From the NCBI RefSeq assembly GCF_001542815.1, contig NZ_CP006992.1:4159501-4223500 (forward strand): a DNA stretch of 64,000 bases, written 5' to 3'. The stretch is from Methylobacterium sp. AMS5 (GTDB taxonomy: Bacteria > Pseudomonadota > Alphaproteobacteria > Rhizobiales > Beijerinckiaceae). Under the pieces are notes generated by a model that saw nothing but the letters and a program-made list of their open reading frames with translations, had not been told where the DNA came from and ran no database searches. Shown one piece after another: positions 33,084 through 39,043 of the stretch (positions within the stretch are counted from its first letter, which is position 1; the number at the start of each line of letters is the position of its first letter). Position numbers and translations under genes: made by a program.

Positions 33084-33506
33084 ATGCGCGACGACCGCCG
33101 CTGGCTGCGCCTCAGTCTGAGCGGCCTCTACGGCTTCATCGGCGTCGTCCACCTCACCGCCACCGAGCGCTTCCTGCCGATCATGCCGGACTGGGTGCCC
33201 GCGCCCCGCCTCGTGGTGATCGGCACCGGCCTGTGCGAGATCGCGGGTGCGCTGGCGCTGTTCGTGCCGCGGCTGCGGCGGATCGCCGGCATCATGCTGG
33301 CGCTCTACGCGGTCTGCGTGTTCCCGGCCAACATCAAGCAGGCGGTCGAGGGCATCGCCGTGCCGCCGATCCCCGACACGTGGTGGTATCACGGCCCCCG
33401 CCTCGCATTTCAGCCGGTGATGGTGTGGTGGGCCCTCTACGCCGTCCGCGCCGTCGATTGGCCGTTCGCGGCACGAAGAACGGGCGATACCGGAGCACCT
33501 CGTTAA
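33084..33506 (+). CDS. DoxX-like small integral membrane protein
   Basis: 140 residues with four predicted membrane helices (about 10-28, 44-64, 66-86 and 110-128). The pattern GFIGVVHLTATERFLPIMPDWVP ... GTGLCEIAGALALFVP ... IMLALYAVCVFPANIKQA is typical of DoxX/DUF417-like four-helix proteins. The molecular role is unclear in most bacteria. Confidence 0.8.
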   Translation: MRDDRRWLRLSLSGLYGFIGVVHLTATERFLPIMPDWVPAPRLVVIGTGLCEIAGALALFVPRLRRIAGIMLALYAVCVFPANIKQAVEGIAVPPIPDTWWYHGPRLAFQPVMVWWALYAVRAVDWPFAARRTGDTGAPR

Positions 33507-33618
33507 GATTAATCCGGGCGAGCAAAAGGCTTTTCGCTGAGGAAAACGGCGCCGAAAGCGTATCCGAGCGGGCTCAACCGGTGGTCTTCGGCTCGTGACC
33601 CTGTCTAGGCTCGCTGTC

Positions 33619-33786
33619 ATGCCGAAGAGCCGCGATTCGAACCGAACGAACCGCCCGCAAGACGGCGCCGCACCGCCGGAGCAGGCGGCGGTCGAACGCG
33701 CCCTGGAGCAGATCGTGGAGCGCCTGAAGCCGAAGGCGCCGGACCCGAAGCCCGCGAAGAAGGGCGGCCCGCGCAGGAAGGGCTGA
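33619..33786 (+). CDS. Small basic protein of unknown function
   Basis: 55 residues (63 if the GTG at 33595 is used), rich in Lys, Arg and Pro, with one possible helix (AAVERALEQIVERLKPK). Nothing identifies a role. The two-hairpin repeat begins 24 bases after the stop. Confidence 0.4.
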   Translation: MPKSRDSNRTNRPQDGAAPPEQAAVERALEQIVERLKPKAPDPKPAKKGGPRRKG

Positions 33787-33810
33787 GCCCTGCGAAACGG
33801 CTTCGCCGTC

Positions 33811-33858
33811 TTCAGGGCACCGCCCTGAAAACCCGCCAAAGGGCCTCAGGCCCTTTGG
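33811..33858. repeat. Two-hairpin intergenic repeat, terminator-like (copy 2)
   Basis: TTCAGGGC-ACC-GCCCTGAA (33811-33829) and CCAAAGGGCC-TCA-GGCCCTTTGG (33836-33858). Same two stems as at 283-331 but in reverse orientation. It sits between the convergent small basic gene and mazG, the right place for a bidirectional terminator. Confidence 0.7.
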
Positions 33859-33870
33859 AATCCCCGAACC

Positions 33871-34701
33871 TCATGTCTTCTCGTCGCGCTTCACGGCTTG
33901 CCAGGCCGCTTCCATGGCGGGGAGGGCGGTGCCCTCCAGGGCCTGGCCCTCGGCGGCGAGCCGCGCGGCCATGGCGGTGAAGCGGCGCTCGAACTTGAGC
34001 GTGCCGCGCCGCAGCGCTTCCTCCGGATCGACGCCCGCGTGACGGGCGAGGTTGGCGACCGAGAACAACAGGTCGCCGATCTCCTCGAACACCGCCGCCG
34101 GATCGCCCGCCCCCAGGCTCTCCTCGACCTCGTCGGTCTCCTCGCGCACCTTGGCCAGCACCTGGGCCGCGTCCGGCCAGTCGAAGCCGACACCGGCCGC
34201 GCGCTTCGAGATCCGGTCGGCCCGGGCGAGGGCGGGGAGGGCGCGGGAGACCCCGGCCAACGGTCCCGCCGCCTCTGTTTTGCCCGCCGCCGCCTTCTGC
34301 GCGCGCTCCCGCGCCTTGATCGTCTCCCAGGCCGCCTTGATCGCGGCCGGGTCGGTCGGGCGCCGCTCGGGCGGCAGGAAGTCTCCGGACGCATCGAAGA
34401 CGTGTGGGTGACGCCGGATCAGCTTGGCGCAGATCGCCTCGGCGACGTCGTCGAAGCGGAAGGCGCCCTCCTCCTCGGCGATCCGCGCCTGGAACACGAC
34501 CTGGAGCAGGAGGTCGCCGAGTTCGTCGCGCAGGTCGGCTCGGTCGCCGCGCTCGACCGCGTCGGCGACCTCGTAGGCCTCCTCGATCGTGTAGGGGACG
34601 ATGCTGGCATAGCTCTGCTGCACGTCCCAGGCGCAGCCCCGTTCCGGATCGCGCAACCGCGCCATCAGCGCCAGCAGCCTGTCGATCGGCGCCTCGTCCA
34701 T
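33871..34701 (-). CDS. mazG: Nucleoside triphosphate pyrophosphohydrolase MazG
   Basis: 276 residues. Two tandem MazG domains: the first with CAWDVQQSYASIVPYTIEEAYEV and LRDELGDLLLQVVFQARIAEE, the second with KVREETDEVEESLGAGDPA and FEEIGDLLFSVANLARHAG. The EExxE...ExxD metal-binding helices are intact in both. The enzyme hydrolyses NTPs and dNTPs to monophosphates, as housekeeping or in alarmone control. Confidence 0.95.
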   Translation of the reverse strand: MDEAPIDRLLALMARLRDPERGCAWDVQQSYASIVPYTIEEAYEVADAVERGDRADLRDELGDLLLQVVFQARIAEEEGAFRFDDVAEAICAKLIRRHPHVFDASGDFLPPERRPTDPAAIKAAWETIKARERAQKAAAGKTEAAGPLAGVSRALPALARADRISKRAAGVGFDWPDAAQVLAKVREETDEVEESLGAGDPAAVFEEIGDLLFSVANLARHAGVDPEEALRRGTLKFERRFTAMAARLAAEGQALEGTALPAMEAAWQAVKRDEKT

Positions 34702-35003
34702 CGGTCTTCCGCCTCATCCCGCAGTGGTCGCCCGGCCTCAGCCAAGCCACCGCTCATAGACCGTCCGGCGCTGCCGCGCAGCGCCGCTTCGCGCGCCTTC
34801 GATCGGGGAGAGAGGGGGCACAGCCTGTGCAGAATTCCGTGTATTCCTTTTGAAAAGAAGAGAAAAAGCCCTCGTTCGGTTTGGCGAACGCAGCGCAACC
34901 CTCCCTAGGAAAGCTATCTGTTAAGGATTCTCAGGGAGTCAGTTCAGCAAGTTATAGGGGAGGCGGAAAAGCCGTGATCCTCCCGTGGCTTGAGCTCTCT
35001 TCG
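34702..35003. promoter_or_regulatory. Upstream part of the RepA replicon: AT-richer segment with a near-DnaA box
   Basis: 34840-34970 is clearly less GC-rich than the flanks and could be the unwinding element of an iteron origin. TGTGCAGAA at 34826-34834 matches the reverse DnaA-box consensus TGTGNAWAA at all but one position. The mazG promoter must also lie here. The assignment follows from the adjacent iterons and repA gene. Confidence 0.45.
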
Positions 35004-35240
35004 CGCATCGAACTCTGCGCAAGACCGCATCGAACTCTGCGCGCCCTCGCATCGGATTCTGCGCGAGGCACGGGGCCTGTCGCATCGGATTCTGCGTGGG
35101 CCCGTACCGGATTCAGCGTGCAAAACCGGTTTGGCCGGGGAAGAGCGGGGACAAGTCCGGGGCCGGGGGGCAGGCGGGGGGCGTATTGAACTCTGCGCGG
35201 GCAGATTCAGGCCGGCGGCCGGGCGTATGGAACTCTGCGT
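35004..35240. repeat. Iteron array: seven 17-bp direct repeats upstream of repA
   Basis: Consensus CGYAYYGRAYTCTGCGY, all in the same orientation. Starts: 35004, 35026, 35048, 35081, 35103, 35182, 35224. The first three read CGCATCGAACTCTGCGC or close to it; the fifth (35103) is the most diverged (TTCAGCG). Spacings are 22, 22, 33, 22, 79 and 42 bp. The first four are multiples of 11, so these repeats present one DNA face to a bound protein. This is the layout of initiator-binding iterons in theta-replicating plasmids. Confidence 0.88.
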
Positions 35241-35469
35241 GCCCGGAATCGGCCCCTCTCCCGACCGCGGACGACGCACCTGTGCAGGACTCGGCCGTCC
35301 AAGCGTGGATTCCCGGGAAAACTCCGAAAGGCCACGGGACTCCGCGGAGCCGAATCGTGACAGATCGGTTGCGGCCCTGAGGGTGCTTCCGACGATTCCG
35401 TGCGGAGCCTGGGGCTCGGATGAAGGCGAACACGACGTGACACGCAGCGGGAGGCCTTGAGGGCAGGCG

Positions 35470-36567
35470 ATGTCGGGGCTTGAGGCCAAGATCGCCGCGA
35501 TCCGCGACCCGGATCTGCAGGCGGAGCTGGAGGCGGCGCGGGGCGGGTTCCTGTTCGCGCCGATCGTCGAGCACCTGCTGTTCCGCCAGCGCGAGCGCGA
35601 CGCTGCCCGGGCCCAGGAGGGGGCGCAGGCCGAGGCCCGCGAGGCCATGGGCCGCGACCGCCGCCGCCGCGATGCCGTGCGCGAGGTGATCGAGAGCGAG
35701 CCCACCGGCCCGGAAAACCTCCAGCATCTCCACTCGGTGCTGGCGCTCTGCGGCCTGCCCTACCGCGATCCCGGCGACGCCCGCGACTTCGTGCGGGAAT
35801 ACGGCCGCAACTCGCTCAGCCTCTCGGCGGGGCGCCTCAAGAACCCGATCACCGGCGAGATGGAGCTGCAGGGCCTGCCCTACGGCCCCAAGGCCCGCCT
35901 CGTGCTGCTGCACCTATGCACCGAGGCGGTGCGCCAGAGGAGCCCGACCATCGAGGTCGCCGACAGCCTCTCGGGCTTCATGAAGGCCATGGGGTTCGCC
36001 GTCACCGGGGGCGAGCGCGGCACCATCGGTGCCTTCAAGGAACAGCTCAACCGGCTCGCCGCCTGCTCGATGCAGCTCGGCCTGTGGGACGGGGAGGGGC
36101 AGGCCTCGACCCTGAACGTGCCCCCCTTCCGCCAGCTCGAACTCTGGCGGCGCGGCGATGACGGCCTCGTCTGGCAGCGCACCGTCTCGTTCCATCAGGA
36201 TTTCTACGACAGCCTGATCCGGCACGCCCTGCCGGTCGATATCCGCGCGGCGCGGGCCTTCTCCGGCTCGGCGCGCAAGCTCGACCTCCTGTTCTGGACC
36301 GGCTACCGCCTGCGCGCCCTGCAGCGCCCCCTGCGGCTGACCTGGGACAACCTGCACCGCCAGTTCGGCGCCGAGAACGCCAGCCTGCGCAGCTTCCGCC
36401 AAGCCTTCAAGGCTGATCTCGCCGGCCTGCTCGAGGTGTTTCCGCGGCTGCGGATCGACCTCGACGAGGGCGGCATGCTGCTCCACCCGGCCGATCCCGG
36501 CAGCCTGCTGGTGCCGCCCAAAGCCGCCCGCACCGCGCGCGCGGCGGCCTCTGCGGCCCGCGCCTGA
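35470..36567 (+). CDS. repA: RepA-family plasmid replication initiator
   Basis: 365 residues. It matches the plasmid-encoded RepA family (PF04796-like): REYGRNSLSLSAGRL, the core LPYGPKARLVLLHLCTEAVR, DSLSGFMKAMGFAVTGGERG, LNRLAACSMQLGLWDG, VSFHQDFYDSLIRHALPVD, ARKLDLLFWTGYRLRAL and FRQAFKADLAGLLEVFP. The conserved winged-helix regions are unbroken, so the gene looks intact. It would bind the upstream iterons and recruit the replisome. No partition (parAB), mobilisation or toxin-antitoxin gene accompanies it. Neighbours on both sides are chromosomal housekeeping genes. Confidence 0.88.
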   Translation: MSGLEAKIAAIRDPDLQAELEAARGGFLFAPIVEHLLFRQRERDAARAQEGAQAEAREAMGRDRRRRDAVREVIESEPTGPENLQHLHSVLALCGLPYRDPGDARDFVREYGRNSLSLSAGRLKNPITGEMELQGLPYGPKARLVLLHLCTEAVRQRSPTIEVADSLSGFMKAMGFAVTGGERGTIGAFKEQLNRLAACSMQLGLWDGEGQASTLNVPPFRQLELWRRGDDGLVWQRTVSFHQDFYDSLIRHALPVDIRAARAFSGSARKLDLLFWTGYRLRALQRPLRLTWDNLHRQFGAENASLRSFRQAFKADLAGLLEVFPRLRIDLDEGGMLLHPADPGSLLVPPKAARTARAAASAARA

Positions 36568-36991
36568 CGGAAATCTTTTCGGGGTTTCGGCCTTCAGAAT
36601 ATTCCATGAGCCTGCCCTGGTGGTTTCGGTTAGTAAGGAATATTCCAATCTTCCAATAAAGGAAGTCTTCGGCCCCAGCGGAGGGAACGGTTCATTCCCT
36701 CTTCGGGGCCGTATGATCCGCCTGTTCCGACACGCTGAAGGCCCCTCTGGCCGAGGTGCTGCGATCGCCGCCTCGAAAGCACGCCGCGACGCGTCTTTCC
36801 GTAGAGGGCTGTTCCGGCCGGCTTTGAGGTCGCGCGTTCGCTCGGCGCTTCGGCACGCGCCTTTCATTCCATCTTCCGATCAGGGAACAGAGCTGAATGG
36901 AATAGAAAGAACTCGCCTTCCCTTCCATTCCATGACATCTTCCATTCCGAAAAATTCCCCCCATTGGGAATGAGCGGTGAGGAAGGCCAGC
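36568..36991. other. AT-richer region with a repeated YATTCC-N-TCTTC motif
   Basis: Four same-direction copies of a motif close to YATTCC(N1-6)TCTTCS occur at 36641 (TATTCCAATCTTCC), 36693 (CATTCCCTCTTCGG), 36865 (CATTCCATCTTCC) and 36926 (CATTCCATGACATCTTCC). The palindrome GGAATATTCC is at 36638-36647. The motif does not resemble the iterons upstream of repA. It lies between repA and a small winged-helix gene and may be an operator or a second part of the replication/segregation locus. No credible gene in between. Confidence 0.5.
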
Positions 36992-37552
36992 ATGGTCCTG
37001 TCGGAAGCCGAGGCTCTGGCGCGGCTGGAGGCGCTGCGTCGGCAGCGCGACGCGATCGAGCGCCAGATCGCCGATCTCCTGCTCTACCTCGATCTCGGCC
37101 GACGCCTCGGCGGCCCGGCTGCGCCCGCTCAGCCCTCGCCGGACGCGGATGGACGAGCGGACGCCCCCATCCCCGTTCCGGAACCCACGCCGCAACCGGC
37201 TCGGGCGCCGGCCGCCGCCCCGCCGGCTCCGCCCTCCGCAGCGCCCGACAGACCTCCGGCGCCAGCCTTCGCCGTGCCGGTCGAGGGGGAGGTCGGCCTG
37301 TCGGAGACGGTGCTCGCCCGCCGCTACGGCCGGGCGGTGATCGAGGCGGTGCTCGCCGTCCTGGAGGAGGCGGGCCGCCCGATGCATGCGAGCGAGATTC
37401 TGGCGCGGATCAACGAGCAGGGTTTTTCCCTGCCGGGTCAGGACCCGGTGGCGGCGCTCAACACCCGGCTCTGGAAGCGTTCAGGCCCCGGCGGTTCGCT
37501 GAAGCGCCTGGGCGAGGCCGTCTACGCCCCGGCCGATGCGGAAGAGGGATAG
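36992..37552 (+). CDS. Small protein with coiled coil and C-terminal winged-helix (HARE-HTH-like) domain
   Basis: 186 residues from the ATG at 36992, chosen because GGAAGG lies 5 bases upstream; a GTG at 36977 is possible. The N-terminal ~35 residues are a likely coiled coil (EALARLEALRRQRDAIERQI), then a ~60-residue Pro/Ala linker. The C-terminal ~75 residues (RPMHASEILARINEQGFSL, AALNTRLWKRSGPGGSLKRL) resemble the HARE-HTH winged helix found in chromatin and restriction proteins. It follows repA and the repeated-motif region and could bind that DNA. Function unknown. Confidence 0.65.
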   Translation: MVLSEAEALARLEALRRQRDAIERQIADLLLYLDLGRRLGGPAAPAQPSPDADGRADAPIPVPEPTPQPARAPAAAPPAPPSAAPDRPPAPAFAVPVEGEVGLSETVLARRYGRAVIEAVLAVLEEAGRPMHASEILARINEQGFSLPGQDPVAALNTRLWKRSGPGGSLKRLGEAVYAPADAEEG

Positions 37553-37602
37553 AGCATCATCCCGAAAGGTGGTTGCCGGCTTTCGGAAAAGGACGATGCG
37601 CT
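37551..37602. repeat. Dispersed imperfect palindrome (copy C)
   Basis: AGAGCATCATCCCGAAAGGTGG... to ...CGGAAAAGGACGATGCGCT, inverted relative to copies A and B. It overlaps the last base of the stop of the winged-helix gene and can form a long stem, so it may also terminate that transcript. Confidence 0.75.
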
Positions 37603-37720
37603 AGCCGCACGCCCTGGAAACACGAGGAGGGGCCCCGCGCGAAAGCCGCCTCTGAACCGTGTCCGATGTCGTCTGCGAGAGCGACCGCCCCATCGAAGAG
37701 CGCCGCCGATCCGCGCCGTC

Positions 37721-39043
37721 TCAGCGCGAGACCACGACGGAGCCGGTCGATTCCGTCACCGCGCGCTGGTTCAGGTCCAGATCCGGCCCAAGGTCCGGCC
37801 GAAGATCCAGCCCCTTGGCCGTGGCGGGCGGATGGGCCTGAGCGAAGGCGCTGCCATCGCGGGCCAGGGCCTCGCCATGGGCGAACAGCGCCTTCATGTA
37901 GGGCTGGTCGAACGGCTTCTCCGAGGTCTTGGCGAAGCGCCCGTCGATGAGAGCGATCCGGAGATCCAGGCCGGTGCGCGCGGCATAGCCCTTGGTGAGC
38001 GCGAGCGCCGCGCGGGTCTGCGCCTTGATCGCCGCCGACATGGTGCGGCCGAGCACCGAGAGCGTGGTGCGCGACGCCATCTGGAATTCCGGTTCGAGCC
38101 GGTTGTTGACGACGAGGTAGACCCGGTTCGTCGGCAGGCGCAGCCGCGTCTCCCCCTCCAGGGCGGCGGCCGGCGCGAGATAGAACGGGGCCATCGCCCC
38201 GCCGTCGTCGTGCAGCTCCGCGAAGGGCTTGGCTTTGGCTCCGTCTTTGGCCTCGACGGGGATCGCCACCGGCGGGAAGACGCCGGGCACCGCCGTCGAG
38301 GCGAGCACGATCGAGCGGAACAGGGCCAGCGCCCGCGGATCACCGGTCTCGGCGTTGCGCTGGGCGATCGCGCCCATGTCCCACAGCACCGGCCGCTCGC
38401 TGTCCACCTGGGTCGTGGCGATCAGCAGACGGCGGCCCTTGGCGTGCTCGGCCGCCACCGCCTTGAGCAGGGCCGGCGTCACCGCGCGCCCGATCCGCTC
38501 CTTGAGCGGCCAGGTGTCGGTCAGCGAATCCGGCGTGCCGCCGAACTCGAACACGTCGGCGGCCGAGATCTCGGTATAGTTCTCGCGAAGGGCCGCATCG
38601 GCCCGGTCGCCGAGCGTCGGCGCCGCGAAGGCGAAGGGGGCGATCAGCGCGCCGGTCGAGACGCCGGTGACGACGCCGAAATCGGGGCGGTCGCCGCGTT
38701 CCGACCAGCCCGCCAGCAGGCCGGCGGCGAAGGCGCCGTTCTCGCCGCCGCCGGAGAGCACCAGCCAGGGATCGGAGGCGCGGGGCGCCCCGTCGATCAG
38801 GGCCTGGAACGCGCGCGTGTCGTCGCCCGCGATCCGCACCGAGGCCGGCAGGCCCTCGGGCTGCGCGGTCGCGGCCTGGGCGGCGGTGTAGTCCGGCCGC
38901 GCGTCGGCGGACTTCTTCGCCGCCGGCCCGGCCATTGCCCCCTGCGACAGCGCGAGCGCGAGCAGCACGCCGGCCAAGGCCCCGCCCCTGCGCGGGCCGG
39001 ACGGAAAAGTCTGCATGATCGGTTCGTTGAACAGTTTTGGCAT
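37721..39043 (-). CDS. Patatin-like phospholipase, exported
   Basis: 440 residues from the ATG at 39043, with GGGAG 8 bases upstream. An N-terminal basic stretch and hydrophobic helix ending in SQGAMAG indicate export. The patatin domain has the oxyanion loop LVLSGGGENGAFAAGLL, the nucleophile elbow GVSTGAL and the catalytic Asp in LHDDGGAM. It should hydrolyse acyl esters of lipids through a Ser-Asp dyad at or beyond the inner membrane. The C-terminal ~150 residues keep the fold. Monocistronic. Confidence 0.9.
   Translation of the reverse strand: MPKLFNEPIMQTFPSGPRRGGALAGVLLALALSQGAMAGPAAKKSADARPDYTAAQAATAQPEGLPASVRIAGDDTRAFQALIDGAPRASDPWLVLSGGGENGAFAAGLLAGWSERGDRPDFGVVTGVSTGALIAPFAFAAPTLGDRADAALRENYTEISAADVFEFGGTPDSLTDTWPLKERIGRAVTPALLKAVAAEHAKGRRLLIATTQVDSERPVLWDMGAIAQRNAETGDPRALALFRSIVLASTAVPGVFPPVAIPVEAKDGAKAKPFAELHDDGGAMAPFYLAPAAALEGETRLRLPTNRVYLVVNNRLEPEFQMASRTTLSVLGRTMSAAIKAQTRAALALTKGYAARTGLDLRIALIDGRFAKTSEKPFDQPYMKALFAHGEALARDGSAFAQAHPPATAKGLDLRPDLGPDLDLNQRAVTESTGSVVVSR

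Follow-up and report, generated by a model that had tools for sequence, protein, structure and literature searches.

In iteron replicons, the initiator RepA binds iterons, melts an AT-rich block with DnaA and recruits the helicase, and an excess of RepA shuts the origin off. A cassette of this kind is found in Methylobacterium sp. AMS5, within a stretch of 64,000 nucleotides (the window; positions 4159501-4223500 of contig NZ_CP006992.1, here C1, which has 5,435,450 bases in a genome of 5.6 Mb and four contigs), where a repA gene is preceded by iterons and followed by a gene for a HARE-HTH protein. The explanation towards which the evidence leans slightly is that this cassette is a captured and domesticated iteron plasmid origin, inherited vertically and probably still capable of firing as a conditional auxiliary origin. 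The literature describes bacterial chromosomes as single-origin (PMC7174701, PMC9210752).

Several described systems bear on such a reading. According to PMC7433901, the rep/oriV module of SGI1 shares with the cassette a RepA_C initiator, 17-bp iterons, a DnaA box, AT-rich repeats and chromosomal integration, and its RepA_C rep gene and iteron oriV are each required for replication; SGI1 differs in excising from the chromosome and in being mobilised by helper plasmids. For its part, the Methylobacterium cassette is genus-wide (RepA is present in 111 of 111 genomes), with no mobility gene and no integrase among the 23 window proteins scanned with Pfam, and thus differs from an integrative mobile island of the SGI1 type. 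That scan took in 22 of the 40 predicted open reading frames (ORFs) of the window together with hspQ. In the NSCV strains of V. cholerae (PMC6284228), a plasmid-type origin likewise resides in a chromosome that retains its normal origin, with ori2 active in NSCV1 and silent in NSCV2; these are whole-replicon fusions in unusual strains, whereas Methylobacterium keeps a cassette of less than 3 kb throughout the genus. Haloferax and Haloarcula carry several origins per chromosome, some of them inactive (PMC4595724, PMC3936714); they are archaeal, and no homology is claimed.

Origin anatomy and its plasmid counterparts

The initial annotation, made from the letters of the window alone, had proposed a RepA-iteron cassette at 34826-37552 amid housekeeping genes, and this is confirmed by Pfam, iteron, AT and DnaA-box scans. 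The order runs from a DnaA-box-like site at 34826 through a dyad, an AT-rich block, seven iterons and repA to the end of the HARE-HTH gene at 37552 (Table 1). The product of repA, claimed as a full-length RepA-family initiator, is a 365-aa ORF that matches the Pfam family RepA_C (PF04796) at 8.9e-18 and 65.6 bits, over the curated cutoff of 26 bits. Its AlphaFold2 model (mean predicted local distance difference test score, pLDDT, 79.9; predicted template modelling score, pTM, 0.64) has a secondary structure judged compatible with two winged-helix domains; among solved structures, a sequence search gave one chain at a best E of 0.15 and a profile search gave none. The gene is already annotated in the sources as 'replication protein RepA [Methylobacterium ...]'. 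Several UniRef names call the Methylobacterium protein 'Pirin', which looks like a propagated misannotation.

Table 1. Features of the cassette and of the adjoining mazG gene, in window positions
Feature	Position	Strand	Remark
mazG	33871..34701	-	divergent neighbour of repA in 11/17 primary loci
DnaA-box-like site TTCTGCACA	34826..34834	-	1 mismatch to TTWTNCACA
Two ATTCC pentamers	34834..34847	.	mazG side of origin
Dyad CGTTCG-N6-CGAACG	34873..34890	.	between DnaA box and AT block
Conserved AT-rich block, presumed DNA unwinding element	34905..34960	+	56 bp, conservation over 39 loci
Iteron 1	35005..35021	+	1 mismatch
Iteron 2	35027..35043	+	17-mer repeat
Iteron 3	35049..35065	+	17-mer repeat
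Iteron 4	35082..35098	+	17-mer repeat
Iteron 5	35104..35120	+	2 mismatches
Iteron 6	35183..35199	+	17-mer repeat
Iteron 7	35225..35241	+	17-mer repeat
repA, RepA_C-family replication initiator, 365 aa	35470..36567	+	PF04796
repA-HARE intergenic stretch, 10 GGAAT/ATTCC pentamers	36568..36991	.	includes GGAATATTCC at 36637-36646
HARE-HTH protein gene, 186 aa	36992..37552	+	PF05066, 1.5e-6

All of the seven same-direction 17-bp iterons claimed earlier were located, with starts from 35005 to 35225; they are direct 17-mers of consensus GYATNGRAYTCTGCGYG, grouped 3+2+1+1. The spacing 22-22-33-22 is exact in 46 of the 47 Methylobacterium loci that carry the primary type of repA (from 46 genomes, L002 and L095 belonging to one), the exception, L025, reading 22-22-32-22; among the loci of genus g32, the array is present in L103 and partial in L104. 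A signature of five iterons at these spacings has 3 mismatches at the cassette, and nothing scoring 22 or better was met elsewhere in 2,525,430 positions (about 1.26 Mb sampled of the genome, both strands). Genome-wide, seven iterons occur at one mismatch or fewer, six of them within the array. Over eight genomes, 41 of 48 iteron matches fall inside the array, and the seven strays equal the seven matches of a reversed control pattern; given the lack of an excess outside the array, a scattered RepA regulon is unlikely, and RepA probably acts without one.

The AT-richer segment proposed earlier is evident over 39 non-redundant loci, two of them from Microvirga. From 100 to 45 bp ahead of the first iteron, the block averages 60% AT against 32% at -300 to -200, and it is conserved at 1.05 bits per position as compared with 0.31 just upstream and 0.68 just downstream. 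The site described as a near-perfect DnaA box, TTCTGCACA, does differ from TTWTNCACA at a single position. Within the interval from 240 to 140 bp ahead of the first iteron, 12 of the same 39 loci have an exact DnaA box as their best site and 10 have one with a single mismatch, where shuffles give means of 0.055 and 2.19, and 20 of the 22 boxes with at most one mismatch sit 174-189 bp before the first iteron. The shuffles used here for the DnaA box and the pentamers discussed below keep base composition alone and the loci are related, so that the expected numbers are not probabilities.

A dyad of the form GTTC-N8-GAAC was seen by eye in 14 of 19 loci and could possibly be a dimer binding site or a hairpin. 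Paired changes occur in L077 (GTCC/GGAC) and L103 (CTTC/GAAG), and one broken pair in each of L078 and L092. A conserved terminator at 34873-34890 was also considered; the dyad has a terminator-like tail in this genome, and the idea was dropped because by eye the tail is missing in L014 and L018.

Plasmids provide the closest counterparts to this layout. RepA matches occur in 893 plasmid records, all at less than 60% identity, and five from Rhizobiales were chosen for examination: Xanthobacter NZ_CP063366, Mesorhizobium NZ_CP033509, Aureimonas NZ_CP006371, Bradyrhizobium NZ_CP088286 and Shinella NZ_CP093532. Their RepA proteins are 43-50% identical to the chromosomal one over the matched part, and all five carry three iterons at 22-23 bp, a step of 32/33, two iterons at 22-23 bp, a step of 65 to 67 and one more iteron, with extra iterons in loci L134 and L136. 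Plasmid iterons of the kind GCGACCAAGTCTGCG resemble the chromosomal GCATCGAACTCTGCG, and by eye an AT-rich stretch with TTCTG-like repeats lies at the three-iteron end in 5/5. The plasmids differ in being extrachromosomal, in having the origin downstream of repA and inverted, in having ParA annotated near repA in four of the five and an AAA-family ATPase in the fifth, and in showing no HARE gene among the annotated features displayed. With its RepA_C domain, direct iterons in plasmid spacing and AT-rich region, the cassette is, as judged from sequence, one that keeps the parts of a RepA_C iteron plasmid origin, its origin module having shifted ahead of repA.

Such a likeness could also be expected of a chromosomal incompatibility module, in which RepA and the iterons are kept to block plasmids of the same specificity through handcuffing and titration and normally do not initiate. 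This is unlikely, though it draws on the retention of iterons and initiator with no partition or transfer genes among the scanned proteins, on the many plasmid relatives of RepA and the array layout shared by the five examined, and on a discussion of plasmid incompatibility as competition between elements in PMC8987985. However, incompatibility needs neither a conserved AT-rich block nor a DnaA box, and a plasmid DNA search with the cassette returned no close match, only 13 records, each with an identity of 60-80% and none covering 80% of the query. Moreover, the specificity of RepA should follow that of changing plasmids, and instead the geometry is frozen.

Inheritance within Methylobacterium

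A comparison across Methylobacterium had been suggested as a check, and the conservation is complete for RepA, found in every one of the 111 genomes, and nearly so for the array. The sole copy in G102 is of a second type, 67% identical, and the primary type is partial in G004, G072 and G110. Second-type RepA, 64-67% identical, is present in 16 genomes (partial in G104), and a further copy at 30-35% in five. Downstream of second-type repA, iterons of other sequence are seen in L083, where the spacing is 22-22-33-22, and in L086, where it is irregular; no primary-type iterons lie upstream of second-type repA in L083, L084, L086 and L105 (the downstream side was read for L083 and L086).

Outside Methylobacterium, RepA is sporadic. 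A draw of 248 genomes of the family gave 22 with a match, 16 in the genus and six outside it: two g32 genomes at 69-70% (that in G320 being, by its coordinates, a Microvirga guangxiensis locus), one g40 genome at 39% and three g42 genomes at about 30% (E about 6e-4). At order level, 23 of 397 genomes matched at 1e-10, nine from the genus and, at 29-50% identity, 14 from elsewhere, and in genus g73 RepA occurs in three of five. Two named Microvirga repA loci adjoin other chromosomal-type genes, and four Microvirga stretches (L103, L104, L194 and L196, with L104 and L194 being the same place) yielded no mazG and no HARE.

Within the genus, pairwise distances of repA track those of rimO (r 0.88, 8 taxa), mazG (r 0.86, 12 taxa) and HARE (r 0.84, 13 taxa). 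The proposed synteny with mazG is borne out in part, this gene adjoining repA in 11 of 17 primary loci and not being found within the stretch in the six others (L080, L081, L088, L089, L090, L093). The ratio of nonsynonymous to synonymous substitution rates (dN/dS, computed by NG86) for a close pair, against G014, is 0.046 for repA, 0.157 for rimO, 0.146 for mazG and 0.267 for HARE; this pair was relied upon because the values of distant pairs seemed inflated by saturation.

The suggestion of a domesticated plasmid origin is thus strongly supported by genus-wide presence, inheritance with neighbouring genes and the origin layout shared with plasmids. A complete iteron plasmid origin would have entered the chromosome of a Methylobacterium ancestor and would since have been inherited vertically and retained. 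A further suggestion, an integrated remnant in the passive sense, fails on the presence of RepA in all genomes and the intact array in 46 of 47 loci. A plasmid-type gene and repeats with no stability genes among the scanned proteins are what such a remnant would leave behind; it is nevertheless very improbable, with no decayed array or broken repA among the 47 loci, a low close-pair dN/dS and inheritance alongside the neighbouring genes.

The surroundings of the cassette are ordinary. By Pfam, rimO, a DoxX-like gene and mazG flank one side, and a patatin gene, an HpcH/HpaI-type lyase gene, hspQ, efflux-type genes, coaBC and purF the other, so that every neighbour named in the initial annotation (mazG, rimO, hspQ/YccV, coaBC and purF) is identified. 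Its statement that no partition, transfer or toxin-antitoxin genes accompany the cassette holds for the 23 scanned proteins. An Rfam search of 33500-38500 gave no match and a sigma-70 scan of 34700-37700 no promoter, and terminator-like sites number six, where shuffles average 2.1 (sd 1.5).

Chromosomal position relative to origin and terminus

Neither origin nor terminus could be placed by plain GC skew, third-position skew or gene-strand bias, all of them too weak, and the polarity of the octamer GGGNAGGG, which we take to be the FtsK-orienting motif of E. coli, was used in their stead. Over 60 sampled stretches and the window, the octamer counts 182:52 across 1.555-4.507 Mb of C1, and the opposite arm has 39:126. 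There are perfect parS sites at 1.559 and at 1.750 Mb, and the interval 1.555-1.564 Mb holds mnmE and an lptE-like gene. A dif-like 28-mer is found at 4,507,425, in the sampled bin where octamer polarity turns; an initial dif pattern, allowing 2 mismatches, had no match, and it was a looser scan of the sampled DNA that gave the site. The normal origin region is 2.64 Mb from repA, which lies 89% of the way along from the origin marker and 312 kb short of dif.

The cassette had also been put forward as a possible main origin of this chromosome, and in its favour stands a complete origin anatomy. This is scarcely credible, as the origin-type switch, parS and mnmE/lptE are all at about 1.55 Mb and not at repA, a terminus-type switch accompanies the dif-like site at 4.507 Mb, the octamer totals oppose each other on the two arms, and dnaA is present. 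Nor does the locus have the features of other replicon classes, since it sits within a 5.44-Mb contig among housekeeping genes and is not extrachromosomal, and since repA shares its contig with dnaA, parS and the dif-like site, which a chromid or secondary chromosome would not. About 1.55 Mb separates parS, mnmE and the origin-type switch from the dnaA gene, with which C1 begins, and two perfect TTATCCACA boxes are at C1 6978 and 6989; the M. oryzae genome paper (PMC4161386) places a putative origin upstream of dnaA.

Comparison across genomes suggests that a position in the terminus half is common. The dif pattern matched in 20 of 24 genomes searched. In 16 of them, repA shares the contig with dif at a distance of 19-312 kb and, going by the listed strands, reads towards it in 16 of 16; the match is on another contig in G071 and G040, and there was none in G005, G030, G051 and G063. 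With mnmE as origin marker, 14 genomes of known length have repA at a fraction of 0.44-0.50 of the chromosome away from the origin, and G094 has it at 2.9 Mb. The fraction is 0.13-0.35 in G071, G063, G105, G030 and G051, and the distance 1.1-1.3 Mb in G011 and G005. Given these exceptions, the terminus-half position is common and not universal, and strictly conserved nearness to dif was ruled out by G011 and G105 together with the mnmE exceptions.

Two genomes show unusual arrangements. In G029, repA lies at only 0.11 of the chromosome from mnmE and so does dif, 21 kb from repA, which points either to an error of assembly or to strongly unequal chromosome arms. In G105, a single contig of 6.16 Mb, octamer polarity is reversed between two repA copies (5.628 and 0.689 Mb), with switches at 5.51-5.64 and 0.64-0.70 Mb, as expected of an inversion or of replication from the second repA; a further stretch of reversed polarity, at about 2.24-3.32 Mb and with one dissenting bin, lacks repA.

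The HARE-HTH gene and a proposed auxiliary origin

The gene downstream of repA encodes a HARE-HTH protein and, as judged by tblastn, adjoins repA in 16 of the 17 primary loci, the seventeenth, L076, being recognised by a partial match and its start; it was seen beside repA in none of three second-type loci. Among 329 related proteins, those named by organism within the best 120 are from Methylobacterium, Methylorubrum or Methylobacteriaceae. The cassette is flanked by GGAAT/ATTCC pentamers. The densest 1 kb in the sampled 1.26 Mb, covering the end of repA and the repA-HARE gap, has 10 per kb, as against a mean of 1.05 and six at the next separate place, and GGAATATTCC occurs once in this sample, at the gap. 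Over 37 chosen loci (35 from Methylobacterium and two from Microvirga, with 300 nt taken where the HARE start was unrecognised), there are 209 pentamers downstream of repA against 13.9 expected and 72 upstream of the AT block against 8.3, and the palindrome GGAATATTCC with at most one mismatch is seen 43 times against 0.23 expected, in 24 of the 37. Pentamers are not enriched in the two Microvirga loci (one each downstream), and L094 has none downstream. This pattern suggests that a HARE protein of the genus may act on sites bracketing the captured origin. The linkage of HARE to repA in the genus and the GGAAT/ATTCC sites flanking the cassette are new here, and among the top-ranked matches in the open-licence literature no paper was recognised on the conserved origin, its genus-wide presence or a HARE/GGAAT system.

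The same linkage and sites, the distance of 19-312 kb from dif in 16 genomes and the lack of iteron excess elsewhere in eight genomes could also be accounted for if RepA and the iterons were repurposed without initiation, either structurally, through sister handcuffing near dif, or for local control of repA-HARE expression. This too is unlikely, as plasmid-exact geometry and an AT-rich block exceed what an operator needs, and as 7 of 23 genomes have repA elsewhere than opposite the origin marker.

How a captured and domesticated origin might function can be outlined from the known behaviour of iteron replicons. RepA would bind the iterons, melt the AT-rich block with the help of DnaA and could load the helicase, so that the locus would serve as an auxiliary origin under certain conditions and might rescue or finish replication of the terminus half upon failure of the forks from oriC. 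More speculatively, the HARE-HTH protein might bind the GGAAT/ATTCC sites on both sides and thereby hold or release the origin; the tolerance of a second origin would then be accounted for.

Several observations weigh against an active, conserved origin of this kind. There is no turn in octamer polarity at repA in this genome (12+/3- before it; 8+/5- and then 23+/2- after it); plain GC skew, the check proposed earlier, is uninformative. Routine bidirectional firing in most cell cycles is therefore unsupported, and any forks running back towards oriC would be too infrequent to leave a mark; conditional, unidirectional or late firing at repA is possible. Moreover, 17 of 39 loci have no DnaA box better than 2 mismatches, and by eye the unwinding regions of the plasmids are richer in TTCTG repeats than the chromosomal block. 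Distant-pair dN/dS of repA (0.31-0.51) is similar to that of mazG (0.29-0.49) and above that of rimO (0.18-0.24). The dif-like sites of G011 and G105, with 3 mismatches, are megabases from repA and may not be true dif sites, and 7 of 23 genomes (G005, G011, G030, G051, G063, G071, G105) do not have repA facing the origin marker across the chromosome. Finally, the link between HARE and GGAAT is one of co-occurrence only.

Taken in its broadest form, the proposal would be that Methylobacterium has two-origin chromosomes, with oriC and a RepA-iteron origin that is usually in the terminus half, fired conditionally and gated by the HARE-HTH protein through the flanking GGAAT/ATTCC sites; this wider picture is tentative, and rather doubtful as a whole. 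A plasmid origin kept intact throughout a genus constitutes a natural test of the usefulness of a second chromosomal origin and of how it is tamed. The cassette is directly testable in these genetically tractable methylotrophs, and it may bear on plasmid compatibility and strain engineering in Methylobacterium.

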